DNA from: Echinarachnius parma | Taxonomy: Eukaryota > Echinodermata > Echinoidea > Clypeasteroida > Echinarachniidae | Reading direction: 5' to 3' | Assembly: GCA_037951105.1 (NCBI GenBank) | Contig: JBAMJV010011308.1 | Coordinates: 86,001 to 150,000 of the forward strand | DNA: 64,000 nt | Shown: positions 1 to 45,700 of the stretch, piece by piece | Layout: each line of letters opens with the position of its first letter | How positions within the stretch are numbered: the first letter of the stretch is position 1 | The notes under the pieces: model-generated | What the model saw: the letters and a program-made list of their open reading frames with translations, nothing else | What the model was told of the DNA's origin: nothing | Database searches by the model: none | Translations under genes and position numbers: made by a program

Positions 1-67
1 GTGATTTTGTTGAAATTGTACAAAATGGATCACATTAATAATTTGATGTACATTGTATATCATACAG

Positions 68-136
68 GAAGGATGTTGTGGAGGTAAAGGCAGATGTCAA
101 AATGGCCCATGCTCTGCCCAAGATCTCAACATGGAG
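68..136 (+). CDS. XDH: XDH exon 1 of window (linker after second Fe-S domain)
   Basis: Encodes 23 residues with GCCGG near the start, the Cys/Gly-rich linker that follows the second [2Fe-2S] domain in XDH. The acceptor is ATACAG and the donor GTAAGT; phase 0 at both ends. The preceding exons must lie upstream of base 1. Confidence 0.85.
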
Positions 137-3100: not shown

Positions 3101-5575
3101 TAACACCCACTTCATATTTAAGATCGAACAACCCTGTAATTTAGATTTTACGAAAAGAAAACGAATGTGTAGGCCTACAAATCATCCCTTCATCGAACTA
3201 AATATCGGCCAATAAATGTGTTCATTGTATGGAAACGTGCATTGTTATTGTGAGCATGTTCTTTTGTAAGTTTGTCTTTTGTTCATCTCCGGTTAATAGT
3301 GATTGAGAAATGATGTCACAAGGGGTTTTTACTCTGGAGAGTTTTTTTTTTAAAGATGGGCCTTGGCAAACTGAAGAAAACAATTGCGAAAATTGTTACA
3401 AATATACAAAACATATGTAGGTCAAATAGTTAACAAATAGTCGATGAATACACTAATACACAATAGTTGAAGGCAACGTGCATTTGGAATTCAGGGAACC
3501 TTTAAGACTAAACATCCTCATATGCTATAAAATTGTCAGTGATTTGTTGTTGATACATGATACAACAAACTTATTGTGCATGTTTCTCTTTTCTAATCAG
3601 TTATCAGCAAATGAGCCACCCAAGTCGCTGTTCTTCGGAGGAGAGAGAGTTTCTTGGTATCAACCTGTCACTTTGGACGAACTCCTGGCTCTCAAGACTA
3701 AGTATCCTGATGCAAAACTGATCATCGGGAACTCTGAAGTTGGTAAATACTGGATTGTTGTTGTTTTTTTTGGCACACTTGTTGTAACTTTTCGGTGATG
3801 ACTTATAAACGGCTAACTTTGCTGTCGATCAATTTCAAACACACAGAGAAGGTCATGCCTGATTTTTTTTTCATTTTGCATTAACGTAATACACAAAAGT
3901 GACAAATTTGATTATTATTTTTGTTATCATTTTTATTGTTGTTGTTATTGTTGTAATAACTAGTATTGGCTGGCTGGCGGTGGTTGGCAAAAGCAATATC
4001 TATGGCTTATTTTTTGATTGACTAATTATTGTCATTAATAAGACAATTGTCTTTTATCTTGATTTTTGTTTACAAAGGAGTTGAAATAAAGTGGGAAAGC
4101 ACAGACAACATTAATCCTGTACCAAATAGTGACATCATAGCTATTCATTGCCATGTATAATGGTTCTAAGCAATGTCAGGCAAGCTCCAAATGTATGGCC
4201 GGGCAGTTGCTAAGAAGCAATCAACCACATCCAACCCACTGTCAAAAGAAGGACAAGATGTTTAGACTCATTAGTATTGTGTAACAAAAGGGCATGATGT
4301 CATCCATTCAGTACTATATTGTGTCCGGTTCTCATCTCTGCTTGCCAGATCCCTGAACTTACATACTATTATCCTTAGTTACAGACCCTAGATGGCCGGT
4401 GTCATACTTAAGGCTCGTATCTTATATGATTTATATGTGATCTCTCTTTTAAATTATAAAGGTTCGCAAATGAAGTTCAAGAACCAGTTATAGTTGGGTC
4501 CGATCTCTGTAAACCTATCCTGAGCTTATATAAATGGCCTTAGATAGCCAGTGTCATACTATAGGCTTTTGGATCTTGGGGTTTTCATGCGTTTACTGCA
4601 TTATTTATTATTTTCTTGTACTAGTTTCCGATATCTTTTTTTTAATATAAAAGGTGTGGAGATGAAGTTTAAGAGCCAGTTGTATCCGGTCCTGGTCTCT
4701 GTGAACCAGATCCATGAACTAACCAAACTTACCGAGGATGACCAAGGGGTTACCGTTGGGGCCTCTGTTAGTTTGACTTGCATGGATGAGTATTTCAAGG
4801 ACCTCATCAAAAGACAGCCAGGTACTAAGCAGGACTTATATCTTTTTTCTTGTTTACTTGTCAAAGAAAGTCCAACTTGTATGGGCTAAAATCAGCAATA
4901 AAATATGACCAGGTACTAAGTGGGACTCATATTTCGTTACTCTTGTTTACTTGTCAAAGTAAGTCCTAAATCAGTCCAAACTTTAGAAAGTCCAAAACTA
5001 ATCAAAATTGTATCGGGGGCTTTAGTCAGCCTAAAGTGGCCTGGCAATTTAAATACAATACTTTATTATTACATCACAAAATCCTTTTTGGTTTGTACTC
5101 AAAATATCAGTAATAACAGAAAATTACGAATATTTCCACCTATTCAAAAGCCTTCCGTAACGTGCTAAGCCCCGCATCTTAAAATGTGCAATGGTGGGGT
5201 CATGACTAAATTACATCTTTTGGAGCCAGTGTGTGAGGGCTCACATGCCCTAGGGCAACAGTAATGTACTTTACTTTTGTGAACCCTGACCCACACACTG
5301 CTTCTAACTATTTTCTTCTGTCTTGTAACTTGTATTTTTGTAATTTGTGCATATATAGTGTTGTATTTTACATTGTATTATGCTTTATGGTCGAATAAAT
5401 AATAATAATAATAATAATAATAACATCATTGCAGGCAGACGTAGGCACACATGTCAACTTCCACCTTTAATAATATTACAAGCCTTTCATGTAATGCAAA
5501 CATCGTTCAGGCATTTTTGTATTTATTTATTTATTTATTTATTTATTTGTTTAATTAATTTATTTGTTTATCTAT

Positions 5576-5650
<75 letters not shown>

Positions 5651-5651
5651 C

Positions 5652-5702
<51 letters not shown>

Positions 5703-8700
5703 TTCATTTTCATTATTTTTGTTATGGGGAGGGGGCGTTCCTAATGGGGATTCTTTTAAATGCATTCTTAAAAAGAAAAAGAAAAATTCTTATCATATTT
5801 GGATTCTCTGTGAAAACTTAAGGTCAGTCGTTCCCTTTTTATTTCGTTACCACTTAAAGAAGAATGGACCAGTATTTCAAGGATATCATGAAACACAACC
5901 AGGTCCTCAACAAAATCACTTAAAAGTCTTCTTTCTTTATTGGTCATATCAACCTCATATAAATTTATATTTCGAATCGAGGTCCAAAAAAATTGCAAGT
6001 AAAATTTGGGGGGCTTTTCAAATAATGATAATTTCTTTGCTGTTGTGTTATAACAAAATGTAAAACAACACTTTTTGCTGATGTCAGATAATGAGTTGTT
6101 CATTTATATTTGTGTGTGCGTTATTACAGAACATAAAACCAGAATTTTTGCTGCTTTTGTCGAGATGTTGAGATGGTTTGCAGGAGCACAGATCAGGAAT
6201 GTTGCGGTGAGTAATAACTTTCCAAACAAATGATCTCTAACACAACTCTTCAAGAACTTTGATGCAGATTTTTTAAAAAGGAAGCTTTACATTGCTGTCT
6301 GCTAAACAAAATAATAGTTTCTTAGTAAATCAAGATGTACCATACTATTTTGTTCAAAAATATTTGTTGTTATTTCTGATGTTACTTTCTAATTTCTTTA
6401 TTATAATGTTTTTACGTTTAGCTCAGACTTTATTGAATGGTGTCTGTTACCTCTTAAAAGGATATATATTTGTTCAGACAGAATTGTAGTAAATAAAAAT
6501 CGTATTACAGTTATCATAAAATATTAACAGTTATAATTGAATGATGCTTGAATGGTAGTAAATCATCTTAACCAAAACTGAACTATCCCTTTAAGTGACT
6601 TACTATGATTATTATAATATTGTTTATTTGTCCGTGTCACTGTACAGGGAGTGGGAGGCAACATTGTGACTGGGAGTCCCATCTCTGATCTGAACCCTAT
6701 ATTCATGGCAGCAAGAGCCAAACTCAAGCTGGTCTCCAAATCAGGAGGTAAAGTTCTGGTCCAGTTTCTTTCTTAATTGAAACATTATGTAGGTTTGTAA
6801 ATGTATACATCCTTTTAGTGTTTAAAATTATGTTTCTTAACTGATACATACTTATGTAGGTTTGTAAATAAATACGTCCTTTCAAAATTGTGTTTAAAAT
6901 TGCACTTCTGAGTATATCAACTAGTTTATCGATAAATGTATTTATTTTTGTATATGTATATGTCATTATCTATTTATGTGTTTATTTATTTATTTATGTC
7001 TTTATTAATTTATTTATGTATTTATTCATTTATTTATTTAGTATTATTTGTTTAAATTGTTTTGATTATTTAATTCATTCATTCATTCATTCATTAATTC
7101 ATTCATTCATTTATTCAGTCAGTCATTCATTCATTCATTCATTCATTCATTCATTCATTTATGTATTTGTTTATTTATTAATTGATTGGTCGATTTATTT
7201 ATCTATTTATCTGTACATTCAGTTGTTGTTTTTCATTGTACTCAATAAGATGAAATAGGGGTTCTTTCTACCATTTCAGGGTAATTCCGGGGGGCAAAAA
7301 GGGTTGTCATTTACTGTATATTACAATTTTAAAAATGTCTTTATAGGGGGGGGGGGGCTCTCATATACCTAAGTACTCCGCACTACTTATATTGGTAGTG
7401 ACCTAGCTAGTCATGCTAGTAAAATTATATTCTCTCCATTTTGGGTGGCCCGACACATACAGTAACTGGCCCCCAATGTACAGCATTTCATTCTCATCAA
7501 AATTGCACTTTATTGACCCAAACTGTTATTACTGATGCTCATTTTGTATGAAAATATACTTGCCTGATAAGCTACCAAAGTAATGTATAAATTGCATTTT
7601 GCTGGCATAAAATTGTACATGTTATTGGCTCGGATCAGCTGCAGCAGGCCAGTGTAAGACTAACTTCAAAATACTTTTCCAAAAGTGATATGTGAGACTA
7701 CAATCATATAAACCAATATAATTGTAAGATTCTTCTGAATAATCTGTGTTTCTTAGAATAAGGACACTATTTACCTAGTGAAATGGTGAGATAGTTGCCA
7801 GATTTTACCACCTACTGCCGATTGATTATGATTGACATTCGTACAGTCGAAAAGCGTTCCTAGAATGCTTTTTGTGCTATCATAAATATCTCCATAATTA
7901 TGAGAGACAATTGAAAAATCTAAACCTATTTCATTCTTCTGTTACCATCAACAATAAAAATGTAGAAGGCAATTCTGAAAGCTCCTAGTGAATTGGGTTG
8001 AATTTGACAATGTGGAATTCCAAGCAAAGATGGAAAAAATGTTACATTGATCTAGTAACTTTGTTGACATGTGCCAAAAGTGATGAAGGGTTGATGCAAT
8101 GTATATTGTTGTTATCTCATATGTCCACAGGGTATTGTGTGAAAATTTCAAGTCAAATGGACATTGCATGGCCAAGTAATGAGCGAAAATGCAAAGTGAT
8201 GTTCACTAACTCACTGCACTCACTTTGTACACGGTTTCAAAACTCCGGGGGAGTTTTTCTTATCTGAATACTTCGATCGTACATAACTTTGTAACGAAAG
8301 GGAAATTTGAAAAACCGAAACCGGTCCCATGATTTTATTGTTAATACGAATACAACAAGGTATGAGGGAACCGCTAGAATTAAAATTTTATTTTGAGGAT
8401 TTGGACAATGTTACTAAGTCCCTTTAATCATTCTTATGTTCTGACGTGCTTGTAGTTATTTAAAGTAGTGTTACGTTATTCCGTTTATTTGACAAAAGTT
8501 TTTAAAACGTTTAAAAAGTAGAGGGAAAAAGCGGGGGAAAATGTGATTTATTATTATTATTATTTGTTTGTATCCCTGTATTAATGGTCGGGATGGTGAT
8601 ACTGTGACGCTTTGCTTACAATCGTCCCAAAGTCAACGGACCATTTAACATTAATCATTTCATTGTTTGTAAATGTGTTTGTATATGTACCAGGTGAGAG

Positions 8701-11700
8701 GTGTGTGGTGATGGATAACAAGTTCTTCACGGGGTACAGGCGGAACATTATCCAGCCGGATGAAATTCTCCAGTCAATTACACTCCCATTCACACAGCAG
8801 GTACTTTGGCATTGTTCCTCTTTTTCTTTTTTTGTCATTATCTTACAGTGTATATTTTTTGTCCTGTTTTGTTTGTTTTAATGAATCGGTTTAATGCTAT
8901 CCTACAATAATTGGTCATGTGTATAGTGGCATGACAAAGATAAAAAACTACAGGGACAATTTTTCTAAAACTAAGAAATGTATAATAGGGTCCCCCAATC
9001 CTTCATTCATGTGCGCCCCCTCCCCCCTCCCCCTTAATCAGTCTGACCAAGCTGCGCCAAATAAGTAATTCACTTTTCGCCTACAATCATTCGTCGTGTT
9101 CATATGATTTTTGTCTAATTAATTTTAATTTTAACTCAGATTTTGCCCATGCACTTGACATTGTTTGCACAATGAGCGTTTTCTTTAGTATTTTTACTTT
9201 ATCAATTTACTGGAATTACATTTACACTATTCTTAAATTTTTCTCCCCTCCTCTCTATCTATCTCTCTCTCTCTCTTTCTCTCTCTGTGAATTTTTATCA
9301 TAATCTCTGTTTTCTCCCTCTTATTATAAACACTGTTTTCTCCCTCTTCAAAGGCATGTTTTCTCCCTCTCTCTCTCTTTAAAGAATGAATTCTTCCACG
9401 CCTACAAGCAGTCTCCTCGTCGGGAGGATGATATCGCTATTGTCAACGCCGGCATGCGGGTGATACTGGAAGAGAAGGACAGTATTATTCAGGAGATATC
9501 ACTTGCCTATGGTGGCATGGCGCCAACGACTGTACTGGCTCTCAAAACCATGGACAAGTTGATTGGAAAGTAAGTACAGTTGTTGCATCCTCTCTATTGC
9601 AGCCACCTTTGTATCGTGAATTCTTAAAGTATATTTTGTTACCCATAATCAATATGTTTACATGTTTTTATAGGTCTTGGTACGAAAAGGGTATAATATG
9701 TATTAACGATTTGTTAGATGAAGATGGAACTTTTTTGTCACTCAATGAATTTAAATTGAAATATCAAATTACAGTTAATTTTTTGCAATACTTTGGCCTA
9801 TGTGAAGCTATTAAATCTGGTTTCAATAACCGTTGTGGTATTTTTGTGAAAATGGAACAGCCTTTAAGATTAGATTTAATTTCCCTTATTTGTCAATTTC
9901 GAAAAGGATGCTCGCATATATATGCTTTATTATTACAACAAAAAAGGGAAGAATGTAAAAGCTATACAAAATGGAAAAGGTTTTTTAATATTGATGAATC
10001 CATATGGCAGAAGTATTGTGCTCTTGCATTTAATTGTTCTATTGATGTTAATTTACGTTGGTTTCAATTTACAATATTACAAAGAATTTTGTTTACAAAC
10101 GACATATTGTTTAAATTGAACATGGTTGAAACTGAATTATGTTCCTTTTGTAATGCTCATACTGAAACAATTACTCATTTATTTTGTGACTGTCAATTTG
10201 TTAAAATTATATGGGCAAAACTAGAAAGATGGATTAACATAAGTGCTGGTTGTAACATACATTTTACAAATGAAAATATATTGTTTGGATTAAGAGGTTT
10301 AAATAATAGAGCAATAAACTGTTTATTGTTCGTTAGTAAGCAAATAATATTTCGAAGTAAACTAGTGAATAAAATACCTGTATTTTCTCAGTTTAAATCA
10401 GCTTCAATTTCATATTATAAAAATGAAAAATATATATTTAGTTTGAAAGGTCATGGTAAATACTTTGATAAAAAATGGTTTTCCTTGAGAAGTATGTTTT
10501 CTGATATTGTTTAATTAGTTATATTTATACAAAGAAATTATACGACGGTTCATTTATGGTTCATTTACTGTTATTGTTATGATATGCTTGTAAATGTCAT
10601 GCTATGTTTAATTTTGTTTCACTTATACCAATAAATGCCCTGTGGAGGGGGAAAAAAAAAAATATATATATATATATATATATGTTTACATGTACAGAAG
10701 GCATTTCACAACGTTGATCTAAGTTGAACTAAACCCTTAGTTGGACATAAGAGCAATGGATAGTCTTTAGTTTCTTTGTAAAATGAAACAGTTCTTTTAA
10801 AAAGGCATACAGTTTGATAAAATCATCAAGGAGCCTGTAAATAATTGAGTCTCAAAACCTTGGTTTTGTTTGGCTTTTGAATATGTTTTTTTCAACGCCT
10901 ACAAATGGCTTTCCATTAGTATTAGGTCTAACTTACAGTAAAGTTTAACTAAGAATCTTTGTGAACCCCCCGCCCCCTCCCGGTATGTTTAAATATGTCT
11001 ATAATTGCCACTTTAATGCGTTAGGGTTAGGGTATTAATGCATGCACCATTGGTGAAGACTTACACCTCATGGCTGGTTATCCCCAGATGGAGGCAAATA
11101 AAACATCACTTTCTCACTGTTTCTCCAGTTCTCCCTCTCCAAATCCACTTCCAAGCAAATGGAATGGATTAGTGAATATTAGAAAAAGACAACTGTGGAT
11201 ATGCCTTGTTGACCATTTACTGTGCCCATCCCAGCCAGTGGCTGTTAAAGGCAGGAGGAGAAGAATAGAAGCTTATCTTGATACTTGATACTTATATATC
11301 TCCTTAAAAGCGCCATTCGGTGCTGCCCTGGAGAGGCAGTGCAGTGCAGTGCCAGTGAAGTGCGTGGATGTGATTATGATTCTCTCTTATACTTTTTGCC
11401 TGTTTTTGCTTTGTTTGGTGTTTTCTCTCTTTGTTTTTTTCTAACAGGAAATGGGATTGAGAGCATGTTAGAGACATCTCTCTGCACCCTTGGTATAGAC
11501 TTACCCCCTGGGGTGATGGTGGCCTTCTATAAGTTTTTCAGTCTTTTTTTCTCCATAATTTGTGTGTGTTACCTCTCGAGTTTTTATTATGGTTCTTTCT
11601 CGTTATTTTGTATCACAGAAAATGGGATGAGAGCATGTTAGAGACGGCCCTCTGCACCCTTGGTGAGGACTTACCCCTGCCGGCCGGTGCTCCTGGGGGA

Positions 11701-13006
11701 ATGGAGTCATATCGAAAGTCACTCACACTAAGCTTCTTCTTCAAGTTTTATCTAACTGTTGCCAATCACCTTTCATCTTCACAGGTAAAGTTTTAAAAGT
11801 TCAAGATCAAGAGTTATCTTGTTTTTTGTTGTTTGTTGTGACAGCATTAAAGTGTAGATTGATTGAAAACCGACAGTAGTTGATTACAGAAAGCTATATA
11901 AGATCATTTAGAATATGAATTATGTTACTTCCCAAGCAATCATCAGAAAAAAAGAAGAAAAAAAACGGCAATATATTGAACACCGTTTCAACACCCGAGT
12001 CAAGACTTGGTGGAGACCGAACACTCTACTTAGGCCTTTTCGCAAGTCACTTCTTCATAGTCGACGGCAAAGAAATTACGTAATTTAGGCGATTTGCGCA
12101 TGCGTCAGGCTGTCTCACGTTGTAAAGGCCAAATCTTAGCACCCGTTCATAATGATGATGGTGACCTACAACACTTGCATGGCGCCATTTATCTGTTCAA
12201 ACGTTCAAAGGCGCCTGCTCCTCCAAAAGGTAACTCATTTACTGCACATTTGCTTAAAAAGAAACCTTTGAAACCTTTGTCAGCGTTGCGAGGCACGTAC
12301 AGGAGGGAGGGAGTTCCAGAGGAGTAGAGCAACTGAAGCGAAGGCTCGAGTGGATGTATGGTGGCTCTAAATCTTAAACTTAATCAATCGATCCAGTAGG
12401 TGGCCATATGATCGTGTTTTTTTTCTTTAGATTTAGAGCTACCATACATCCTCTCGAGCTACGGATGCAATCGGTACGGCGCGCGCGCGCACCGCAGGAG
12501 TACGGTACGGTACTCTCCCGGGGGGGGGGGGGGGGGGGGGGGCACTCATGTATAATGTAAGACGGGTATGTGCCGCTTAAAAGAACCCCGTTTTCACACC
12601 CGATCGCAGCTCTAAAGATACCCGATTTTCAAAAATTGCTGCTCCATAGACCCCCGGAATGACTTGGCTAGGTAGTTGAGTAGCGCCACGTCCATTATTC
12701 TTCTTCTAGTTCGGCTCCATAGACCCCCGGAATGACTTGGCTATGTATTTGAGTAGCGCCAAGTCCATTATTCTTCTTCTAGTTCGGCTCCTTGGACCAC
12801 CATTTGAGCCTTTTTGAGGGTTTCCGTAGGTCTTTGGTAGCTCCAAGTCTATGTATTTTGTAGTTTCAGTCTGCTCCTTAGACCCCTTAACTCCCGTTTC
12901 AGGGTTTTTGTATCTCCAAAGACCCTATATTTTGTGCTTGTAGCCAGCTCTTCAGACCCCCATTTCAGAGTTCCGTGAGGCACACCCCCGTCAAAAAATA
13001 ATTCGA

Positions 13007-13043
<37 letters not shown>

Positions 13044-25557: not shown

Positions 25558-25592
<35 letters not shown>

Positions 25593-27735
25593 CTGTCCTC
25601 ATACCCTAAGCAAGTAATCGATTTTGTGTAAACCCCTAAGCAAGTATTTTTGATACCCTAAGCAAGTAATCAATTTTGTGTAAACCCCTAAGTAAGTATT
25701 TTTGATACCCTAAGCAAGTACCCTAAGCATCAGCCTAAAATAGATACCCTATTTCCTGATTTTGGGTGATTTTGAGACCCTAAACGAGATACTCGAGTAT
25801 CTCGCCTGATCGTGAAAAACCACCCAAATTACTCGTTTTCTTGGTCACGCATGATACCCCCCTTTCAATGAGGACAGACCCCCCCCCCCCCCCCCCCTCC
25901 CCCTCCCCCCCCCCCCCCGGTCACTGAACAGAGGAGAGTAGAGGAGTTCAATCCACTATGGAAATTGATATACACCAAGAAGGGAAAAAAGAAGAATTCA
26001 ACATGACTTTGTTCAATTTAAAATTGTAGTTGTGCAGACAAAATATAAATGTTTTTTGTTGTATAATAATGGATGAGAAAAGTTAAAGTTAAAGTTAAAG
26101 TTTGGCGAAAATTGACAGAGAAATGTATGTAACATTTTATACAATAAAATAACTTATTATTTTATTATAACAAGAGGCATGGGGAAAATAACAATCATCA
26201 AAAGCAAGAAGGAAGAATATATATTCAACAAATTTGAAGAATTTTATGTTTCCAAATATTCAAGATAATATGTCTAACTTGAATATTTTTTCGACATTAC
26301 TAAAACATGATCTTAACACCAAAAGGGTGAATGACATGTTCTTGTTGCACTGTCTAAAATGCTTACATCTTTGTCAGACGAGCAGCCTATATACTGACAG
26401 AATTATCTTTCTTTAATAGCAGTTCTGTAATGGGCAGTGAAAATAGTTTTGGCAATTGCCATGGCTGTATATATTTTGTGTACGCTCTTTGTTGGTAAAG
26501 GTTCACCATGTGGGTCAGCCTATCGGAGTTATACTTGCAGAGAGCCAGATACTGGCCCAGAGGGGCGCTCGACTCGTGGAGATTCAATATAAGGACTTGG
26601 AGGCCATAATAACCATAGAGGTAAGCGGTTCTGTCATTTTAATCATTAAAGAGATCCCATATTCGGATGTAATGCACTTTCCATGATAAAATATCCATAT
26701 AACAAATGTCATACCAATGTAAAGGGGGGAAAGTAGGCTTTATAATGATACCAAATTTATGAACAGTAATAAAGTACTAGGAGAGATATGAACGCTCAAA
26801 CTTGAATTGCGGAACTTTTTTGCAATAATCTGTGTACAAATCAGACATAATGATAATTTCTCAATCAGTCAATAAAACACAAAACATCTTCCTAACAACA
26901 TACAACAACGTTATTGCACCATCTCAAAATCAAATGACACATTTCATCCTCCAAAGAAGATGATAATACACCATTGACATTCATGCAGTGACCGACTGAA
27001 CATCATTCAGAACACTTTATTCTCCCAACAAAAGGAGGTATCGCTGTTGACAATATCATGGCATTCGGATGTCATGCACATTCCATGATACAATATTCAC
27101 ACCAAATGTCATATCAATGTAAAGGGGTGAAAACAAGTTTTCAAATGATACCAAATTCATGAACGGTAATACAGTAATAAGATAGATATTAACTCTCAAA
27201 CTTGAATTGCGGAACTTTTTGTGAGGGGTTTATATTGAAACTTCAAGTTATTATTGGTTTTATTTGGCTTTGTTTCTTGATCTAGGATGCTATCGCCAAG
27301 CAGTTGTTCTTAAGGGTGACCAAGGGGTTCGAAACGGGAGACATTTAGGAGGCGTTGTAGAGGTCAGACCATGACCTGGATGTAGAGATAACTGCTGGAA
27401 GGCATAAACATGTTGAGATAGTGAACAGTTTAAGTGATTATTGGTAATATTTGACATTGATTATCGATTCAGGATGCTATAGCCAAGCAGTCATTCTTGA
27501 AAGTGACCAAAGGGCTTGAAACGGGAGACGTTGAGGAGGCATTAGCGAGGTCAGACCATGTCTTGGAAGGGGAGATGAAGGTGGGAGGGCAGGACCACTT
27601 CTACCTGGAGACCCAGTGTTCCTTTGCCATCCCCAAGGGAGAGGATGGAGAGATGGAGTTATTCTCTTCCACCCAGCACCCTTCTCAAGTCCAGGTATGT
27701 AAATTATGACTTTATTTAAATGTGAAAAACAACAT

Positions 27736-27779
<44 letters not shown>

Positions 27780-30700
27780 CTAGATAGATACAATAGATAG
27801 ATATATCGGTTGTTATTGAACAAGATAATAAAACAAGACTGTAGTCCGAGGACTAAAGTGCCTTGCTTACAACACAAATATATAAACATTCATGAATAAA
27901 TATATTACAACACAATACAAAAATATTACTTAACATAAAAATACAACAAAATAATATATATTTATAAATGCATTTGGCAAGATAAGCACTAACATGGTAG
28001 CCTACAAATTTGATTATTATAATATATGTATATCCTCATATAATTCGAATTATAATCTAACAATAATAAAGAACCAATTTACTAATTCCTCATCGACTTA
28101 TATGTAATACTAACTAAATATCAAATCAAACAAAGTGTAAATTAATACAGTACATGTATATCTTTAAAAACTACAAAAATTAGCAGCACAAAAGTGCGGT
28201 CAGAGCATTATTATAAAGAGATCAAAAGAACTTTGAAAAAACAAGATCCCAGTTACTCATTAACTCTTAATTTAGGACACAAGATTACTAAAATCTTGTA
28301 AGACAAACTGTAAAAGGAGTCATAAGGCATATGCCAGACCTATCTAAGAGAAAACGTTAATTTAAGTTAACTATAGTGGCAAACCAAGAAATCATTATGA
28401 TTATAGTATGACGCCATGGTGGCATAAAAAAGAATTATCATAGAATGACGCTAAGAGCATGACAATTATTTTATTAAAGGATATCAAATCCCACTACGGG
28501 ACCTTTTTAGCCGTGTACAAAGTAAGTGCAACGAGTAAGTAAATATCACTTTGGATTTTCGCTCATTTCTCGGCCAAATAACATCCAATTTAACTTGAAA
28601 TTTTCACACATTACTTTCTGGACATATCAGATCACACCAATACACATTGCATTAACCACGCATCACTTTTTGCACTTGTCAACAAAGTTACTAGATCCCT
28701 TTAAACTTGGTACATGTATATACATGCATTTTGAGGAGTCAATTACCTGATTAGATTTTGAGGTCAAAGGCCACAGGGCTCATTATACAGGGTGGCCCAG
28801 AAATAACGGAACGGGGCACTTCCCAAAATAAAGTAACAAAATGAACATGTCCATCGGATAGGGTATCATTTCCAATGAACAACGATACCAAGAAAAGTAA
28901 TTTTGGACGTGTAGTTTTTGTTTTAGGGCGCTTTGAGTGAGACCATGTCAGGTTCCTATTTTTGTCATTTTTTACCAAGTCACTGCCTGATAAATGAGAC
29001 TGATTGCCCTACATACCATTTAACACGCGAGTATTCCGCGCGCTATTGTTAGTGTGCATTCAGCTGTGTGCCGAGCGGTGCCGAGAGAATGGACATAATT
29101 GGTGAATAGTATGGCGGGCAGTAAGTCTCATTTATCAGACACTAACTTGGTAAAAATGACAAAAATAGGAACCTGACATGGTCCCACTCAAAGCACCCTA
29201 AAACAAAAACTACACGTCCAAAATTACTTTTCTTGGTATCGTTGTTCATTGGAAAGGACACCCTATCCAATGGGCATGTTCATGTTGTTGCTTTATTTTG
29301 GGAAGTGCCCCGTTCCGTTATTTCTGGGCCACCCTGTATATGCGAAAATAGCTCGTTATTGGGATATCCCAAGAACCAATTGACTTACATGCATGAATTT
29401 TGAGGAGTTAATTACCTGATTAGATTTTGGGGTCATGAGGTCATAGGACAATGGTCACAGGGCTCATTATACATGCACAAATAGTTACCACGATATCTGT
29501 CGGGTGTCCGTCACAAATTATCAAAGCCGAGACCGGGATCCATCAACAAATGTCGAGACCGAGACCATTGATTATGATGGTCGAGACCGCTAAAAAGTGG
29601 ACTTGAGCCCAATTAAAGGGGTAATGTGATCATCAAAGGGAGGGGGAACCCCCCCCCCCCCCCTTCTCCTACACCGGGTACGCATGTGATCTTACGGAGC
29701 CAATGAAATTATTATATTTAAAGGGTAGCTAGGTCAAAGGTCATAGTTGACTCTGCTCATATAAATCACGCAATGGCGGAGGCATCCAATTCGACTGTGC
29801 GCAGTCGAAGATCCATCTAGTTTAATTTCTTCTGCCAAGGTCGTATTGCGCATGCGCAGAAGCATCCAAGGGTAGGCCAGGCCAGTGTCTCATTAATACT
29901 TGCGCGATACTTGTCCAGTGTGTTGATGCCTAGTATGAATGGGTAGACATCTTATCCCAGGCCAGTGCCAGGCCAGTGCCCAGCCAGTGCTAGACGCAAG
30001 TATGAATGGGGCGATATTCTTAAATACTGTAGAAAATCACCTCCATTGTTCTCAGTGTGCTGATAAATTGTGTTGTTTATCGAACCAAACAAGAAAGAGG
30101 AAGAACTGCCTTAAACCTGACAAGTTTTTAATAATGCACCTTCTTTGTCAGTTGTTAACATTTCATATTCTTCCATGCATTTCCTTTTGCAGAAAATGAC
30201 CTCCATTGTTCTCGGTGTGCCGTTGAATCGTGTCGTCTGTCGAGCCAAGCGTTTGGGAGGAGGCTTCGGGGGCAAAGAGTGCAGAGCCTCCATATTGGCC
30301 GCTGTATGTGCTGTGGCTGCATACAAGTAAGTTAACCTTGTACGAGTTTCCCTTATTTGACAGGAAGCCGTTTCGTGGGTGCTACAGAGTTGCATGGCTT
30401 CACAAACGACGGCAGGCTTAATACGGCAATAAAAAATAGTCTGATAATTGTAGTACGTGGTTATATGGCAAATAATACACAGGTTGCACAACTGGTATGT
30501 ATGATATAGAGCCATTTTATTTAGTGCTAATTCGTTGCTAGGTAACATCATAATAGTATCGATAGGTATCGATCATATCGCAACATCCCCCTTCCTTTGA
30601 AGTTATTAACATTCTTCTATAACAAATATCTCATTCGCTTAACACAATGCAACAATGCCTTAATTGCTTATATCTAAAAGAAAGAAAAAAATTAACAATG

Positions 30701-33700: not shown

Positions 33701-36700
33701 ACATTTTCCCTTTTTTCCAAATGCATTTTGACATTTCTTTCGTAATTGAGGGCCTATGGAGAGATTTAAAAATAGTGAAACTTATAAAACTATACATTTT
33801 ATGAAAGCCCTGATAATACGCTTTAAGATGATATCAATAACAGCAATATTGTAGTAAATGGGGAGACACAGCGAAGGATATAATTGGTCAAGGTCTGCAA
33901 ATGGCCTATTGTACATCGTTCAAAAATCTGATCCATTTGTGGTTCATATTTTGTGCAGAATAAATCGGCCTGTGAGGTTCATGCTTGACAGAGATGAGGA
34001 TATGTGTTCTACTGGTGGCAGGAATCCGTTCCTTGGACGCTACAGAGTCGGCTACAGCAACGATGGCAGACTTACGGCACTTGACATCAAGCTTTATTGC
34101 AATGCTGGCTATAGTCATGACGTGTCTGGGGGTGTAAGTATAGTAACATTAATTAAGTTTAATTTCCCTTTCTGTATAGGCAAGTTCGTAATACCAGATT
34201 ATATTATTGTTATTCAGCTTTAAAACAAGAGGGGCTTTTTCTGGTTATGACTTGCTTAGGGCTATAAGTGTCACTTACTATAATTAACCCATTATTTGCA
34301 AATTTTCCTATTAAATGTTTAGTTTTATAGATTGAAATGCCTGAGTGGTATAGGAATAACTATTTCCTGTTGGTAGGATTATAACTGAAAGGTATTGTAT
34401 TATCCTATATATGTGTGTAGCAAAGCTAGATCATATAATTATCGCAATCATTGTAGAGACAATATATTCAATCAGCCTGAATCATGTAGGTTTTTTCCAT
34501 TTATCAATTTATGAGAATAAACTCGCTTATTTTCCGCTTCTTTCAGGTGATGAAGTGTGCAGTAGGAAAGAGCGATACACATTGACAATGTGTATCGAAC
34601 CTTCCGTATGTAAAACAAGTATCCTATCCATAACTGCCTTCATGGATGTCATTTATGTTTTCTATATAGAATCATCTGTTTTAATCTTATTCACTATTTC
34701 AGCTCTTTTACTATTTGATTCATCTCTAAATTCAGGTTAATAGAAAGGACTGTATCGCACATTGACAATGTGTATCACTTTCCTGTTACTAGAGTAAGAA
34801 GTCACTCGTGCAAGGCCAATATCCTATCCAGAACTGCTTTTCAGGGATTTCTTTTAACATGTTTAACCCTCAATAGCCCGGAGGCGAAATTTGTTTCCCA
34901 AACAGGTTTGCTATGGCACTAACGCATAAAATATGCCCGTTTAATTGGAATCGGGCGACTTGAATGGAGACCAAAGCACGCGTATTCAATTCGAGTTTTA
35001 AATAGACTTATAGCCACTAAATCTGACCTATGGCCACTAAAATTAGGGTTAGGGTAAGGGTTAATGTTAGGGTATATATATATATATATATAAACTAGCC
35101 CCCCCCCCCCCTCGACAGTTTTCGCGATAATTTGTTAACGCAAAACAATCTTGCGCTGAAATTTCATGAATTCTTTCTTTTACATCTCGCACACATTTTA
35201 AGACCTATTTGCGAAAATCGGGGGTACGGTTGCAGATATTCGTGACCACTGAACAACGTCACAAAAAATGGCAGTTTCCAATTATCTTGTGTGTACAATG
35301 TATGGTTTTACAAGAAGTGTTGTCAGAAGAATGTTTTTTCTGTTTTTCCTCACATAACATCCCTTTAGGCCATCATCAACTATTCTAGATAACAAAACAA
35401 TTAAAAACAAAAGATTTAAAAGCAAAGAAATACATAAGAAATTTAAAACAAAGAAATACATAAGAATTCAGAATTTCAAGAAAAATTAGCATATTTGCAT
35501 AATTAATTACAATTATAAATATGGAATTTCAATACATGTCATTAATTTGACTAAGCTATCTTTTAGATTATATTACAAGCTACAAACATGCCAAATTTGA
35601 TTGCATTTTCTCCATAAATGCGGGGAAAACTGGAAAAAAAATGAGAATTCCTTGCAAAAATTTGCATATTTGCATCATTAATTAGACAAAAATTAAGAAT
35701 AACAAAATCGGTCGATAAATGGCCGAGATCTGAGGTGGGAGGGCCAAATTAGCCCCCCCCCCCCCCGGGCTATGCAGTTTCAAAATAGCCCGGGCTATAT
35801 AGGGTTAAGACTTTTATTCTTTATCTACTATTGAATTTACTTCACTATTTGAGCTCTCTTACTACTATTTGATTCTCTACTTTCTTTCAGGTGATCGATG
35901 AAAAGGGCTGTGTCGCACATTTGCAATGTGCCTTACCTCCGTGTAGTAAGACTAAGAGGTCTTGTGCAAGACCATTATCCTAGCCCAAACTGATTTTGTA
36001 GATTTTGGTCACGGATTTTATTCAGTATTTACGATTTTAATTTACTTTATTTCAGCTTTTCGATTGTGTTTTTCTTTCTCTTTGCTATTTAATTTTCTGC
36101 TTCTTTCAGGTGATACTAAAGGCTCTATCACACATTGACAATGTGTATCGCTTCCCTGTGGTCAGAGTGAGATGTCACTTGTGCAAGACCAATCTTCCTT
36201 CCAACACGGCCTTCCGTGGCTTCGGTAGTCCCCAATCGATGGTCATTTGCGAAACTTTCATGACGGACATCGCCACAAGACTTGGTATCTCCCAACTGAA
36301 GGTATAATCATCATTCTCCGAATGATATATTTTAAACCTTTTCCGCTCTATATTTTTGCAAGTAAAAAAATACTTGTTTTTACATTTAATGGCCCGAAAC
36401 CTGAATCAGGTGGCCTAATATCAAACAAGTATAGACAGCTAGTGGTCTTCATTATACAGGTAGAGCATGTTGACTGTATAGTTCATATTATCTCAGTAAT
36501 TGTTTTTGTCATCATTATTGTTTTATGATTATTAGAATCATTGTTCATCTTATTTACCCCAGATCAGGGAGATAAATTTCTACCAGGAGGGGGATGTGAC
36601 TATATGCAATCAGCAATTGAATGGTTTTCAAATACAGCGCTGCTGGGAAGAGTGCCTACACAAGAGCAACTTTGCAACCCGAAGGGAAAACGTGGACATT

Positions 36701-39700
36701 TTCAATAGGTATTAAGACAGATATAGGGCTCGACACAAGCACTTGCCCGAATGCCCAGGGCAAGCTAAGATCAACACTGGGCGAGTGAAATCTTCATATA
36801 TTTGATCTTATTTGGTTGCCAGATTGGGCAACTAACATTTTTCTTCATCTTTGAGAGAAAAATGTATAAATCCCAAGCTACCTAGCACGATTAATTATTA
36901 GGTTGTTTAATATTGGTTTTGGCAGACATATACATTTCTTATTCAAACAAGTGAAATTGAAATATTTGCAATAATGGGCTAGTAGAAAAAAGTCAGTGTG
37001 GATGCTTTAGCCCCATTTCATGTAGTGAGATCCAGTTATGTCAACTAAATGATTTGTTTCCATTGCTTTGTTTTAATGTCATGCGTTGCTTTGTTTTCTT
37101 TTTGCTTTACTTAGCTTTTTTGGTTTTGGTTTTGTATTTAGCGAGAACAGGTGGAAGAAGAGAGGTCTAGCCGTGATACCAACCAAGTTTGGAGTCTCCT
37201 TCTCCGACGCGTTCCTTAATCAGGTATGCCACGTTTCTTTTTTCAGTTCAAGTAAATATCAAACTCAAGTAAAATTTATGTATTCAATAATAACAACTTG
37301 CATGTGGTGAGTGATTTTTATGCCTCCGCAACGAAGTGGCCGGAGGCATTATGTTTTCTGTTTGTCCGTCCGTACAGGCCAGACAAAATTGAATATGGAA
37401 TTGAGATAGGAAAGAGGTTTTAGATCAAGATAGTTAACATCACAGTCTAGACTTTTAACATTTATCAAGTTCATATGGAGTACATTGAAAAGTGTACACC
37501 AAGATGTCATTAAATGTTATCACACCCTGGACTTTAAACATGATCAATTTAATCAGTCCTTACAATAATCGGGGGTTTGGTATGCATATTAATCAACAGA
37601 TTGATGCACCTGTCATATGGCTTTATTGAGATGAGCCAGGGGTTGTACACTGAGATGACGTCCTTACAACACGGCGTTGACTTTTAATGCTAACAAATTA
37701 ATTAGTCAATGATGCAAAAATACTGCTGAAAACTTCTTATCTACTATAATAATGCCGGGAAATAAAGTGAGAGTCAATATAGGGCCTAAATTTTCGATCC
37801 TAGCAGAATCTTCTTCAGAGGCTATAAAGTGACGATAATACAAAAAGAAACAACATATATATACACATACTGTATAGCTACACATGCTAAGAAACTGAGG
37901 AAGGGGGTGGAAACATGGAACAATGAAAGGGCTGTGAGTGGCCAATCAGACTAGTCTGGGATTGGAGGAAATGCACACAAAGAGGATGTTATGTAACAAG
38001 GAGCAAGGGGTTGGAGTGTGAGTCAGAAGGATTAGGACGTTCTCTAAACGTTAAAACACAATTTCATGCAAATACGACCAACATTGGCCTTTTGAGCAAG
38101 GGATGAGCATCATTCAAAGTCACTCGCTGTACGGGATAATCCCATTCATAGCGAACACCATGGAGGCTGCCATTGGTGTTTATGAAACTCGGATCGCTCT
38201 ATGATGTGATGTCAAACCCGAACTACTCTTTTTGTTGGCTCACGTTTGGCATTGTGTTTGTGCACAAACCCCGCGAGCTGCGAGAGCTAACAAAAAGAGG
38301 CGGAGCTTGTTTGTTCGGGTTTGACGTAGCATTTCGGCGCGAACAATTAAAAATCCGGGTTTCAAAAAATATAATGGCAACCTCCACGCTATACGCGATG
38401 AATGGGATTAGCCGATTGACTTTGAATGATGCCCCTCCTTTGTTCAGAGGGCAAACATTGGACATATTTGCATGAAAATATGTTTTAATGTGTAGAGAAA
38501 TTAATCAAAGGTAAATAGATGATGGGGAAACTTTCCCTTTAAGGACATGAATAGTGAATGGAGACAAGATGTGAATGGAGGTGAGATGAAGGGGCTTATA
38601 GTAAAGGGGGCCAGAGTGGCCACAGAAGAGGGAGGTGTGTGTGGGGGAGGGGGTGGTAAACAAAGGGGAGCTTAAGTGGAGGAGGTGGGATTAATGAAGA
38701 GTGGTGGTATGAAAAGGAATGCTGATGGGGAGGGGGGGGGGGGGGGTAAGAATGGGTGATGATCAGTGGAAATATGAAGAACCAGAGAAAGAAGGATGTA
38801 CGAAAATCAGACAATGCTTATGTACACAAATGGAACCCTGTAGAAAAATGGAAAATGAGAGTGTAATGTCAGTTAATTATTAGTTAGCAAGATATATACA
38901 TGATATATAAATAAGTATATTGGGATATAAACAATACATGAAAATAATTACAACATGACAAATAAATAAGTCTTATGAAACTAATGTAGCTGGCTGCCGA
39001 TTAGAGTCCTGTGGGAAAACAGTAAGTGGGAGAAATGTAGATTAAACATACTTAAAAAGTGGTGCATGCGATATATCAATAAACAGATGAGCATATACAA
39101 TATGTACAATATATACAGTATCAAACTATAACAAATGATAATCTAATATGGAGAAAATGTGAGAGAATTGAAAAATATAGTTGAAAATCGAGCAAAACAA
39201 TGCATGGAAAAGGATGGAGAATGAGAGCTCCTGCTAATGAATACAAATAATTAGATTTTTCATTTCTCACCATTTTGTTTTTGTGATTTCTAATTAGGCG
39301 GGTGCTTTGGTACACATCTACACCGATGGTTCCGTGCTCCTGTCACACAGTGGCATTGAGATGGGTCAAGGCCTTTACACCAAGATGGCCCAGGTAGCGT
39401 CCAGGACTCTAGGCATCCCCCAGGAGAGGATTCACCAGTCGGAGACCAACACCAGTAAAGTGCCCAACACAACCGAAACTGCCGCCAGCACGGGATCAGA
39501 CCTCAACGGCAAGGCAATAGAGGCAAGCGTTCCAGTACCCGTTCGTTGTTTGAGAAAGAGAAGTGCGCTAAGTCACTCGTACTTCAGGGATTATCATTTT
39601 TGAAAGCCATGTTAAAAAAAAACAGTTGTAGCTCTCTTGTGTAGTTGATGAATAAACCCCAAATCAGACCTAATTATTATCTGAACATGTTGCATCACAT

Positions 39701-42700
39701 AGAGGAGGCTCAAACCTACAAGAATATTGCCAAAAATAGGCCGAACGCTCTTCCCACTCTCATCTAGTATTACAGAAAATATGAAATTACATGTTAATAT
39801 GTTGTTGTTTTTAAGCCATTAACGGCAATTAGGCAACAGAGCCAAGTTTAGGCGAGCATTCAATTAGATCATAGGAAATTACAAGTCTTCTTTGAAAAAA
39901 AGAAAAGTGTACACATGTATACCATTTTAATTTTAATTTTTGAATTGTAAGCATCAATTTTTATTTCGTAAGAGAAAAGTCTTACAATTATTTGCATTAT
40001 GTGGTTTTGCACACTTTTGCAATGGTGTTCCCATATTAAAAAAAATTGCGTGCGGTAATATAGTATTACAGTATCTGCAGGGAGCTGAAAAGGACCATAG
40101 TATAATTGTATGTATAAGTGGTCAAGTCTATCTGACCTATTCCGGCAATTTATTAAAAAGCTAAACAACTATATATTTCTACCAGTCCCAATATTTCAAA
40201 CATCATGTATAACTTAAATGTTTTCTCATTCCAAATCCCTAGAATGCCTGCAAAGTGCTCCTTGGAAGACTGGAGCCATACATGCATGCTAATCCAAAGG
40301 GCAACTGGGATGAATGGGTAAGTCCTAATATCGGCTTCATGGGCGTAGGGGCACATTTGTCTCAGGGGGCTGAGGTCTTTTGCCCAGATGATTATATACT
40401 TCCCATTTTCACCTGACAAGCAGAAAAAAAGGTTTTTGAGTCTTTGATGCTAAGTTTTGATGTATAGTCTAAATATGGGTTTTGCCCCAGAATGACGTTG
40501 TATTGCCCTAAAAAGACATTAATTTGCCCGAATGTAACATGACTCTGGCAGAAAATGACATGAATGTGCCCGAATATGACTTTATTTTGCCCAAATATGA
40601 GACGGATTCGCCCGAATGTGACATGATTTTACCCGAATATGACATGGATTCGCCGGAATATGACATGTTTTGCCCAAATATGAGATGCACTTTTTTTGCC
40701 CAAATATGGTTGTTTTCCAAACTCCAGGGGGGCTGCGGCTGTTTGAGATGAGCAGTGGAGAATATATACTTTATGTAGTTGTTTATTGTCTATCATACTT
40801 TCTTGTTTGCTACAAGGGGGTAGCATTAGCCCAAATTAAAGGGGACCACCATGCAAAGAACAACACCCTCAGGGTTTTTTGTTTTGTTTTATATCAAATA
40901 GATTTACAACACTTTGCTAAGGATTCTGTGATTCATACACAATCGTCTATTGGAGGAGACGTTTTGGTTGGGGGTTTTTGCCTTGCATAATCGTCAGTAA
41001 ATTTAGCATTATGTGAAAGCGTTTTTATTTTTCCTAAAATCCTAACCCGTTATCATTATGATATAGGGGTGTTTGCAGTAAAACTACATTTGGGGCGCAG
41101 TAATGCTATTGAATTTAAATACCGTGGCTTCTTGTTTCAAGATTCCGGTGACATATTGTTGTATTAATCATAACTCATTCATCATAACACTTAGCATAAT
41201 TGGAATATATATAAATATATAGTGGATAGTTGAGTTTTGGTATAGAGGGCGCTACATACAATAATTTGTTGTGAGATAATGAAAAACTGAGTGTCAAATT
41301 TGAAAGAGCATACAATTTTAATGACAGAATAAACTTTATTTGATCAAAATCGGTTCAGAAATGGCTGAAATATCATAAACATAACCATTTGTAATAATTG
41401 TGGGGCCCCACAATTATTCGATCATTCGATCCAGCCGTTACAATTTTTGTAATGGCTTCTCTTTTCAAATATTAAAAAAAGAGGTTTTTAAATAGTTCTT
41501 GATTATCTCTCTATCTAATCACTATGTTCAACAAAACATCACATGCACAATATTTTATTTTAAATGGTTGAAACCAATTAATTTTTAGAGAGCGCCCTCT
41601 TGAGTTTTAAACGGCTCTTTTTTTTAATGATAACAGGGCTTTTACAAAGTCATTTGTAATGTTTTATTTCTTTCGAGCATGGTGGAGTTATAACTATTAG
41701 TTTTGTATGGAAATGGTGCAGATTTTGGTTACTAAAAGTCAGTTTGACCAAAACTGTACTCTCTTTACCAAAACTATCCTTTAATATGATATCTCATTTG
41801 TAATGATTAAGCTGCATGTGTGTGTGCAGTACAGGCCACTGGCGTACCCAATATTTTTTCAAGGGGGAGGTTATATCGGCAGCCAAATTTCTGAGGCCGA
41901 GACCAATGGTTGAGAGTTGTGTAAGCAGGGGGGAGGTGTCCGTAGAAAATTTCGAAGCCGAGACCAAGTACCTTCTAAATTTTCGAGGCCGAGACCAGGA
42001 CCGGTCAAACATTTTTCGAGGTCGAGACCGAGACCATTCGTTGAGAATCGCGTAAGCGGGGGGGGGGGGGGGGGGGGGGGGGTGTCCGTATCAAATCAAA
42101 GCCGAGACCGAGAACTTTCACAATTTTCGAGGCCGAGACCAGGGTCCTTCCACACGTTTTGAGGCCGAGACCGGGATCCTTCAACATTTTCGAGAACGAG
42201 ACCATCGGTAATGATGGTCGAGACCGCTAAAATGTGGGCTCAAGACCACGCTAAAAGCGGTAGGGGGGGGGGGGGGAGGTTCAAACCCCTCAAAACAAAT
42301 TATTTTTGGGACAAAGGGGGTTTTAAACCGCCCCCCCCCCCCACCCCCCCCCCCCCCCCCCGGTACGCCTATGGTACAGGCAAACTCTCAAACGTGATGT
42401 ATTGGAAATGCATCAAGTTCCCCTAAGCCTACGCAAACTCAGAGCAAACTGGCATTATTAGCACCCTCTTGGACCGTGTAGGTATGCCCTGTTCAACATC
42501 TACCAAATGGCAAAACGGTGTACTTTGCAACATGTTATTTTAAGCCCCATTCATTCAGAAATACTGCACACACCGCAATCGCATAACCATTACGAATGGG
42601 TCATCATTTATGAAAAAATGTACACGCTTCATGTTGAATTTCATAATGATTATGTTAAAGGGATAGTTGAGTATTGGTCAAACTTACTTTAGTAACCAAA

Positions 42701-45700
42701 ACCTGCATCATTACGGTACAAAATATCTCGAAAGCTCGAAAGGTATACACAGCAGTAACAAACGACTAAGTAAAAACCATGTTTTTAAAAAGAGCCGTTA
42801 CAACTCAAGAGGGCGCTTCTAAAAACTCATTGGTTTTAGTCATTTTTTTCATACAAATTGTGCATTAATATTTTTGTATTTAAATAATGATTCAATAGAG
42901 ATATCATCAACAACTTTTTAAAAACCTATTTAGATTTTTTTTTTCAGGGTAGTCTATAAGCAATTTTTTGTATTTTTCTAAAAAGTCAATCTCTGAAATC
43001 AAATTTGTCAACTATTAGAGCATTTGAAAGGGAATTATTCTCATTTTACATGTTTTATTCAAGGAACTTTCAAATGAAATTAAAACCAACCAATTTAGTG
43101 TCAAGGGGCATTTCGGGAAGTACCAATAGTGAAGTGTACCTTTAAGTAATGTACTAAGATATCTACACACAAAATCTTTTTGGACGCAACGCCTTCAATT
43201 TCACACAATCAAATGCATTTGTGTAACATTTCGCTGTCAATCCTCCTCAATAGTCACCTTTACTGTACATACCCGGCTTTCATTATAATTACAAGTGAGG
43301 TGCCACTGGAAAGTAATTCGACAGGCTTTCTTATGATACAGTATTCGTCGAACGAATTTGAACTTGAGAAAACCGTGATATGAGAGTCAGATCTTCCTCT
43401 GCTGCAGCTTTTCACCCATTTTCAAATATACTGCACATACCCCATACTCATAAAGCTTACAAATTTGGTATCATTTTAAAGAAGAATAAACACCCTTTCA
43501 AACAATACCAAATATAATCAACATGATTTAATAAGAACAGATATATAATCGATCAAACTTAAGTTTCCGAACTTTTGAGGGGTTTAATTAGTTGCTCTCC
43601 TAACACCTCCCCCTCCTCTAACCCTGCCTACTCCCTCACTCTTAACTGACTTCCACTCATATTATGACAAAAGCTACTTTATACAAAAGGGTATCAATTG
43701 TGTTTAATCTGTCTTGTACGTTTATACAATTTGTGTATTCTCTGCAGGTTAACGCAGCATACATGGACAGAGTTAGTCTTTCTACCACTGGTTTCTACAA
43801 GTGAGTATAATGGAAATGTATTGTGCATTGTGTATTACATGTAGCAAACCACACGAAAATGCAATATGCAATTATGGGGTTTTTAATCATTGGTATTAAA
43901 AGGCCACAGTAGTATAGAGATTCTTCTTTTTTAACTCGATGCCTACTAGAACCTGGTGGTCCCTGTATTTAGTCAATGGGGATTCCAAAATATATTATTA
44001 GGGTATCGGTTAACTCTTTGCCTACAGGAACCTGGTGGGCTATGTACAAAGTCTATGGGGATTTCAAAATCTCAACGGAACAGGTTACTAGGTCTGAAAT
44101 ATGAGACCCCCTATTGGTTTTCAAAGATAACTTTTGTATGGAGAACCTTGTTTGGTAATGTGTTCCATTTGTGTTATTGTTTCAATATAGCTCCCGACAT
44201 CAACTATAGCTGGGAGAAGAATGAGGGCAACTTGTTTCATTATGAATCATTTGGCATGGGGATTCATACAAATTGTGAAATCTCCTATTAGTTTTCCAAA
44301 GATGACTTTCTTGCTTGGTAATATATTTCATATGTTTTACTGTTTCCTGTTTATCTGCTGTCCATAGAACTCCTGACTTAAACTATGACTTGGACAAGAA
44401 CGAGGGCAAGTTGTTTCACTACCACTCCTTTGGAGTGGGGATCTCCGAGGTGGAGATTGACTGCCTGACTGGTGATCACCGGACTCTGCGCACCGACATC
44501 GTCATGGATGTCGGCAACAGCATCAACCCTGCCATCGACATTGGACAGGTCAGAACAATATTATGTTTAATTTGCTTTTATTTGTTTTATAGAAATGAAA
44601 AACACTTGATACAGATCATCTTGATTTCAAATCTATCTCCCCATGTTACACAAATGGACAATTAATGTAAAAGAAAAAATATACCGTTTTTCATGTTTGA
44701 TTGTTACCATGGCCATAATTGATTGTACCTGTCAATCATTGTTTGTTGTACTTGTCTTTGAATTGTTCCCAAATTAAAGGTGCCTTTACCAATGGCTATG
44801 ACTTTAACCCCTTGACTACAGGAACCAGGTGGGTTGTGTACAAAGTCTATGGGGATTTCAGAAACTCAAAGGGAACGGGTTAATATGCTGGGAAGACTGT
44901 CGCTTGACCCTCAAGGGCCAAATCTAGCTGACCCTGGAACTTTGCCTAAATCTGCAAGATAACTGGTTCAAACAAATATAGATTATGACTTGAATTTGAA
45001 TTGCAAATTTGATTGATCTGTAAATTGAACCCATATTGAAGGTGCCCTCATCCAGGGCTACGGCTTGTTTGTCCTGGAAGAATACTGCTGGACTCATTTT
45101 GGCAACGCAACATTTTGCACCAAAAATGTAAAAACCTACTTTCACAACAATTTTAATGAAATTTGGTACACTTGATAATCTTGAAGCGAGGATGTGCAAG
45201 ACATATTTTTGCGTTGTGGGAGAAGGTGCTGCCATGGTTAACGCACTATGTTTCATATATTTTATTTGTCAATCATTGTTTGTTTTAATTGTCTTCGATT
45301 TGATCCCAGATTGAAGGTGCCTTCACCCAGGGTTATGGCTTGTTTGTCCTGGAAGACTGTCGGTGGACTCCAAAGGGCCAACTCCTGACCCGGGGGCCTG
45401 GCTTCTACAAGATACCTGGCTTTGGAGATGCACCCAGTGAATTCAACGTCTCCCTCCTCCACAACGCTGCTAATCCAAACACCATTTGTTCTTCAAAGGT
45501 TAGTATGCTAATAAGAAAGAACAGATTCTTTAATATTTAAAAGAAAAAATTGTGAATACAATTGTAAGGAAACTGACCAGAAAAATGAAATCCATACAAA
45601 ATGAGAAAATAAAATTGGGATACGCCAGGAATCGGACCCGAGACCTCTGGATTGGTAGACCGGGGCTCTAACCAATGAGCCACAATGTCTTATTGATGGT

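Follow-up and report, generated by a model that had tools for sequence, protein, structure and literature searches.

The stretch of Echinarachnius parma DNA analysed here (the window: 64,000 nucleotides, C11286:86001-150000, from an assembly of 1.2 Gb in 14,790 contigs) contains a xanthine dehydrogenase (XDH) gene, gene A, whose introns hold 15 decayed copies of parts of its own exons, here called ghosts. Gene A lies on the + strand and begins upstream of the window, with four exons outside it. Its model has 29 exons and encodes 1312 amino acids without a stop codon, and its internal introns are bounded by AG and GT, the exception being an apparent GC donor after exon 24 (GAG/GCAAGC, window 39520-39527). 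The predicted protein aligns over residues 1-1304 of 1312 to the solved XDH 2ckj, and it is 77% identical to an XDH-like protein of Lytechinus variegatus and 75% identical to one of Diadema antillarum. With this similarity over its full length, the live gene of the window is a xanthine dehydrogenase. A second XDH gene, gene B (C11286:195-44462, loci L009-L013), lies outside the window on the opposite strand, head to head with A. The contig ends beyond exon 23 and so truncates the gene; each of the 23 exons present is as long as its counterpart in A, and the frame is open over 1009 amino acids. Live A and live B differ at 55, 21 and 75 of the 1009 first, second and third codon positions, respectively, and those intron stretches that align are mostly 77-90% identical. 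Further XDH copies are found on C1345, C4000 and C9021 (92-93% over one exon), a paralogue at 68% lies on C377, and there are more distant XDH genes, one of them on C2988.

The ghosts were found by peptide and DNA searches of the XDH exons against the introns. There are three of exon 8, two of exon 13, one each of exons 18, 19 and 20, three of exon 21, one each of exons 24 and 27, and two of exon 28; 14 precede the live exon and one, e8c, follows it. A first-pass annotation of this DNA had claimed at least 11 decayed exon copies amid the live XDH exons, and all 11 were recovered by exon and count; its exon n is exon n+4 of the whole gene, and its numbers are given in brackets below. Live exons follow the gene model, ghost extents are given in exon coordinates, and a step is the distance to the live exon.

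Ghost e8a, 4275..4367, + strand: exon 8 coordinates -17..76; blastn 2.4e-6; 92/95 identical to the gene B copy.
Ghost e8b, 4418..4550, + strand: about -41..91; step 193 bp; AG kept; blastn 1.65e-11 over 4440-4526.
Live exon 8 (formerly 4), 4654..4821, + strand.
Ghost e8c, 5862..6050, + strand: 127..296, the 3' part, with donor GT; sole downstream copy in the window; blastn 2.56e-8.
Ghost e13a, 11043..11189, + strand: 35..194, the 3' part, donor lost; tblastn 6e-4, blastn 3e-7.
Ghost e13b, 11410..11555, + strand: about -35..125; step 172 bp; AG kept; tblastn 4e-7, blastn 5e-15.
Live exon 13 (formerly 9), 11619..11784, + strand.
Ghost e18, 27183..27410, + strand: -89..125; step 186 bp; two stops; AG kept; tblastn 7e-13, blastn 4e-26.
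Live exon 18 (formerly 14), 27473..27694, + strand.
Ghost e19, 30014..30103, + strand: about -27..71; step 160 bp; AG kept; blastn 6e-9 over 30028-30072.
Live exon 19 (formerly 15), 30193..30326, + strand.
Ghost e20, 30358..30555, + strand: 58..235, the 3' part, donor included; the live exon lies 3.6 kb downstream; blastn 3e-8; also in gene B.
Live exon 20 (formerly 16), 33959..34133, + strand.
Ghost e21a, 34418..34610, + strand: -128..51; AG kept; blastn 4e-8; common to A and B.
Ghost e21b, 34624..34849, + strand: -129..113; AG kept; tblastn 5e-14; 167/191 identical to the B copy.
Ghost e21c, 35803..36009, + strand: -102..117; step 204 bp; AG kept; blastn 5.5e-18.
Live exon 21 (formerly 17), 36110..36301, + strand.
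Ghost e24, 37479..37659, + strand: -98..92; 1.6 kb upstream; absent from the earlier list; tblastn 4e-4, blastn 2.5e-6.
Live exon 24, 39298..39522, + strand: GC donor.
Ghost e27, 44097..44263, + strand: -96..75; step 174 bp; tblastn 1e-9, blastn 1e-15.
Live exon 27 (formerly 23), 44368..44548, + strand.
Ghost e28a, 44665..44966, + strand: -117..110; interrupted by an insert of about 86 bp (44805-44890) resembling 44010-44090.
Ghost e28b, 44976..45103, + strand: about -54..69; tblastn 1.6e-6, blastn 2e-18.
Live exon 28 (formerly 24), 45310..45498, + strand.

The tblastn peptide search of the window introns gave 28 matches at E <= 0.5, and weak peptide matches carry no meaning, because control counts at the same threshold were similar (13 with reversed peptides; 22, 12 and 19 with three shuffles; 22 with 53.5 kb of non-XDH DNA). 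Ten matches had E < 0.006, every one of them in the intron immediately upstream of its own exon, the strongest reaching 5e-14 (e21), 7e-13 (e18), 1e-9 (e27), 4e-7 (e13) and 1.6e-6 (e28). The best control values were 0.044 for reversed peptides, 0.006, 0.022 and 0.021 for the shuffles and 0.037 for the other DNA; as all of these were weaker than the ten best matches, chance similarity was rejected, in agreement with the earlier claim. Ghosts e8a (0.041), e8c (0.057) and e21c (0.08) are weak by peptide, and the e8b and e20 copies were not found by tblastn in the window introns; blastn detects all five at the DNA level with E <= 2.4e-6. An apparent copy of exon 29 at 47347-47508 was dropped, since it consists mostly of a repeat of about 540 bp and just 28 of 43 bases match the exon. 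This repeat occurs four times (41224-41760, 45866-46404, 46911-47435 and 51472-52011; 78-85% identical), and one of its copies stops about 30 bp short of exon 29.

The ghosts stand at a regular distance from their exons. Offsets were compared in four XDH genes (A, B and those on C377 and C2988), taking each exon +/- 900 bp with no lower distance limit at E < 1e-4, which gave 38 exon-overlapping matches. The smallest offset per exon was 160-204 bp in 17 of the 23 exons with a match, a count that excludes exon 29 with its dispersed repeat, and in 13 of 18 after A/B pairs were merged; the 17 offsets have a mean of 181.8 and a standard deviation of 12.6, within a band picked after viewing the data. 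Further offsets, of 343-393 and 562-601, correspond to roughly two and three steps, so that the copies show the regular head-to-tail unit of a satellite. The 22 exonic arrays matched between zero and three other places within the 310 kb examined, where matches between A, B and the paralogue are expected. Gene B carries four copies of exon 18 and three of exon 21; compared with gene A, its additional ghosts are those of exon 4 and exon 18. In the same 310 kb, after exclusion of 13 of 69 clusters with at least three matches elsewhere, the low-copy arrays outside exons were broader: 34 arrays had steps of 92-868, with 6 at 160-204, as against 13 of 18 at exons (p = 0.0002). The tight exonic step points either to chromatin that phases duplications at exons or to a purge of short units at exons, and such a purge may account for part of it. 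A purely intronic duplication also lies in the intron between exons 17 and 18 (26661-26820 and 27063-27220, 85% identical), with an offset of 402 bp, about two steps.

The copies are fragments that include the flanking intron of their own exon in the alignment, unlike a processed copy, in which introns are absent and exons joined. In genes A and B none of the 28 copies (29 lines, e28a being two pieces) has both splice sites. The acceptor side is kept in 24 of them, with AG intact in 19 of these. Missing donor ends were retested on wider stretches with 200 shuffles each, the first search stretches in gene B having been cut by hand to about one step; in none of the 24 acceptor-side copies of A and B did these wider stretches yield a donor end above the best of 200 shuffles, or a donor end at the collinear place. 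In several of them the next copy starts too soon for a whole exon to fit. A whole exon with acceptor and donor was found solely at exon 7 of the C377 gene. What the introns of A and B hold is partial or degenerate tandem exon duplication in the Exonize sense, exon sequence repeated in the adjoining intron. The side of the fragment is also related to its position. In the four XDH genes together, all 12 exons with 5' fragments have them upstream, whereas 3' fragments lie downstream at six exons and upstream at two, e13 and e20 (p = 0.0007, leaving out C377 exon 7, with its whole copies, and C2988 exon 18, whose upstream copy is acceptor-side). Donor-side copies stand downstream at exons 2, 12, 27 and 28 of the C2988 gene.

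Most ghosts are older than the duplication of the gene. Those of exons 8, 13, 18, 19, 20 and 21 are also present in gene B, which shows that they do not result from assembly collapse. Ghost A and ghost B are 81-97% identical in nine of ten pairs, the tenth (e13a) being poorly aligned (26/35), and ghost A is closer to ghost B than to a live exon in eight of ten, with e18 and e13a as exceptions; most ghosts therefore predate the A/B split. For e13b and e19 flank overlap made the value against the own live exon unusable, and the cross comparison took its place. Ghost-live differences, pooled over the window ghosts, amount to 87/417 (0.209), 82/413 (0.199) and 128/411 (0.311) at codon positions 1, 2 and 3. 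As positions 1 and 2 are nearly equal, the ghost side was unconstrained, and change on the live side would roughly account for the surplus at the third position. This pattern, without coding constraint on the copies, fits neutral decay of the ghosts from birth and argues against their long use as alternative exons.

Such a use had been proposed beforehand, and the least improbable of the competing explanations is that the ghosts once served as mutually exclusive or alternative exons and lost their function after a period of use. Tandem exon duplication is a known source of such exons (PMC9013439); ghost e27 is open over 24 matched residues with 71% amino-acid identity, and the whole-exon copies at C377 exon 7 could be read in the same way. 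However, the lack of A/B copies with both splice sites, the stops in e18 and e21c, and the codon pattern, in which positions 1 and 2 diverge about equally and the surplus at position 3 matches what the live lineage alone would produce, make this origin improbable; the codon pattern does not support the earlier proposal of once-used alternative exons. A second possibility, which we consider marginally less probable again, is that the ghosts are decoy or poison exons, whose kept acceptors work in regulated splicing and are maintained. The 19 of 24 intact AG dinucleotides speak for it, and positions -2/-1 are identical in 43 of 48 cases as against 77-78% nearby. This AG excess is nevertheless weak (p = 0.03), gene A and gene B copies are not independent of each other, and the remaining ghost sequence diverges like the intron flank (0.72 at -40..-16 and 0.72 at exon 61-125). 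A second XDH gene, retrocopy, gene conversion interleaved with the live gene or haplotype merge in the assembly, for which the close paralogue B head to head on the same contig and the further copies might speak, is very improbable, given that the ghosts carry their own exon's flanking intron at regular steps within the same intron and are common to A and B, that similar copies occur in unrelated genes, and that C11286:1-150000 contains no N.

Clipped-exon tandem duplication followed by neutral decay is in all likelihood the best explanation overall, and it agrees with the earlier view that local tandem duplication including the intron flank had occurred repeatedly, rather than retroposition or insertion of a second gene. 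The proposed model is that short tandem duplications occur and build up in low-copy DNA generally, and that those at exons often have a step of about 160-210 bp. A unit overlapping an exon edge would leave one complete exon on its outer side and one exon fragment, so that an acceptor-side fragment would come to lie upstream of the whole exon and a donor-side fragment downstream. Lacking one splice site, the fragment would not be definable as an exon and would thus be tolerated and decay neutrally, and repeated events would produce arrays of up to five copies, the live exon counted. Whole-exon copies would also be possible, as at C377 exon 7, yet few. The molecular cause could be template switching or slippage during replication, or misrepair, with a unit length perhaps set by chromatin. 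A wider proposal, which seems to us possible but on balance doubtful, is that tandem duplication acts throughout the genome on the single-copy DNA of this lineage, with units close to one nucleosome repeat (160-210 bp) in length. The satellite-like unit length would then be fixed by the mutational process when a copy arises, and not through subsequent selection; exon edges would reveal the process since one copy is held constant there.

The scarcity of whole-exon copies depends on the unit length. The share expected among overlapping events is 16-43%, according to the unit lengths assumed, and among 22 exons of the four genes one, C377 exon 7, has such copies; this number is low if units are long but unremarkable for units of 250 bp or less. 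Ghosts in genes A and B are found at none of 14 exons shorter than 130 bp and at 10 of 15 longer ones (p = 0.0002); exon length alone would give an absence at short exons with P(0 of 10) = 0.027, and the 97-bp exon 2 of C2988 has a ghost, unlike the short A/B exons. Selection against whole-exon copies, which would remove some of them, is offered here as a suggestion and not as a result.

Several observations weigh against clipping with neutral decay as the full account. At C377 exon 7 (142 bp; about C377:39359-39970, locus L028) the exon is followed by two decayed whole-exon copies with indels, whose acceptor and donor pieces are both above all 200 shuffles, so clipping is not the sole outcome. 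A 3' part lies upstream in two cases (e13a, and e20 in both A and B), which call for an older whole-exon or multi-step event. The other six smallest offsets, 106, 276, 307, 307, 449 and 648, depart from the step, and the excess identity at positions -2/-1 belongs to this same side of the balance, as does a slight over-representation of exons in arrays (p = 0.03, one-sided). There is also an excess of upstream copies. It had been claimed that each duplication was resolved in favour of the 3' copy; genes A and B conform to this (10:1 exons, p = 0.012), yet it is no general rule, the ratio over the four XDH genes being 13:7 (p = 0.26). A unit clipping the 5' edge leaves the intact exon on its 3' side, so that no contest won by the 3' copy has to be assumed and the claim reduces mostly to geometry. 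Nevertheless, when arrays of three other gene families are added the upstream excess is 23:10 (p = 0.035), a modest surplus that would not be expected from geometry alone; it may be that a duplicated donor is tolerated less well than a duplicated acceptor.

The process is restricted neither to exons nor to XDH. Short tandem arrays overlap 22 of 98 exons, compared with 15% of random intronic intervals of equal length, and 11 of the 22 exonic arrays disappear once the exons are masked, which indicates that the conserved copy aids detection; an exon-specific process was rejected on these rates. In whole-genome searches for three unrelated families, 18 ghost copies were recognised among 330 listed rows. 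Chaperonin (PF00118) has at least three in 92 rows (C5284, C7269, C1820), kinesin (PF00225) at least nine in 146 rows (two on C10331, C12482, two on C1423, C1406, C4289, C8560, C8152) and the myosin head (PF00063) at least six in 92 rows (C1237, C4594, C7085, two on C3991, C7851). These are lower bounds, as the searches scored 87 of 107, 122 of 312 and 65 of 273 candidates, respectively. Pairs were chosen by eye (same contig and strand, less than 1 kb apart, overlapping query ranges), with the live copy judged by score, and stops occur in several rows. Once C12482/C1423 and C8560/C8152, two contig pairs that are probably duplicates, have been collapsed, 14 arrays remain, with first offsets of 164-313, a median of 201.5 and 12 of 14 at 160-226, a band again picked after viewing; 10 lie upstream, 3 downstream and 1 is ambiguous. 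A process specific to XDH was rejected on the similar copies in these genes. Of the possibilities raised by the first-pass annotation, a duplication-prone locus thus gives way to a general process, overlooked since decayed exons are not annotated.

Other features of the two genes and of the window were also recorded. A 10-residue stretch of live exon 21 reads LEKAVSHIDN in gene B and LERAVTHIDN in Lytechinus, with its counterpart in ghost e21b within 34737-34850; we take the varying position to be the purine-binding arginine of XDH. Gene B has GGGFGGKQ where gene A has GGGFGGKE, and the substrates of the copies may differ. Arrays built from a unit with CCCTAAGCAAGT, about 26-59 bp long, occur at 25601-25720 and 55281-55543, 30 kb apart. 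Open stretches are found at 59466-62500 and 9570-10511, the latter continuing from exon 12, and both are presumably remains of a reverse transcriptase or non-LTR (long terminal repeat) element.

Decayed exon fragments preserve, in a form that can be dated, short duplications of which no trace would otherwise survive, and they suggest that tolerance is greater for a clipped exon than for a whole duplicated one. Should chromatin set the step, the reason why satellite units are so often of nucleosome length could be tested directly in single-copy DNA. The fragments are also a warning for annotation, as exon-like pieces within urchin introns may be taken for real exons.

Three known systems resemble these arrays. 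Intron gain by tandem genomic duplication reportedly also involves short intragenic tandem duplication of exon sequence; here no new intron is created, the borders of the live exon are kept and the fragment remains within the old intron. The kind of event is already known from tandem exon duplication, in which exon sequence is likewise copied in neighbouring introns, often unannotated or degenerate (PMC12343006, PMC9013439), and Exonize found partial, inter-boundary and intronic events in more genes than full ones (PMC12343006). The passages of these two papers that treat the matter describe no fixed step and no rule for the side of the fragment, and nothing in the literature searched, mostly titles and passages, mentions a step of nucleosome length in duplicated exon fragments, which leaves its absence unproven. 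The step of about 160-210 bp at exon edges, together with the rule for clipped copies, may be new to specialists. In the Pacific oyster, as the relevant part of PMC7492417 reports, short dispersed arrays have mostly five units or fewer and a dominant unit of 160-180 bp; the most abundant of those satellite-like arrays are shared families carried on mobile elements, whereas each of the urchin arrays is made of local sequence, exon edges included.

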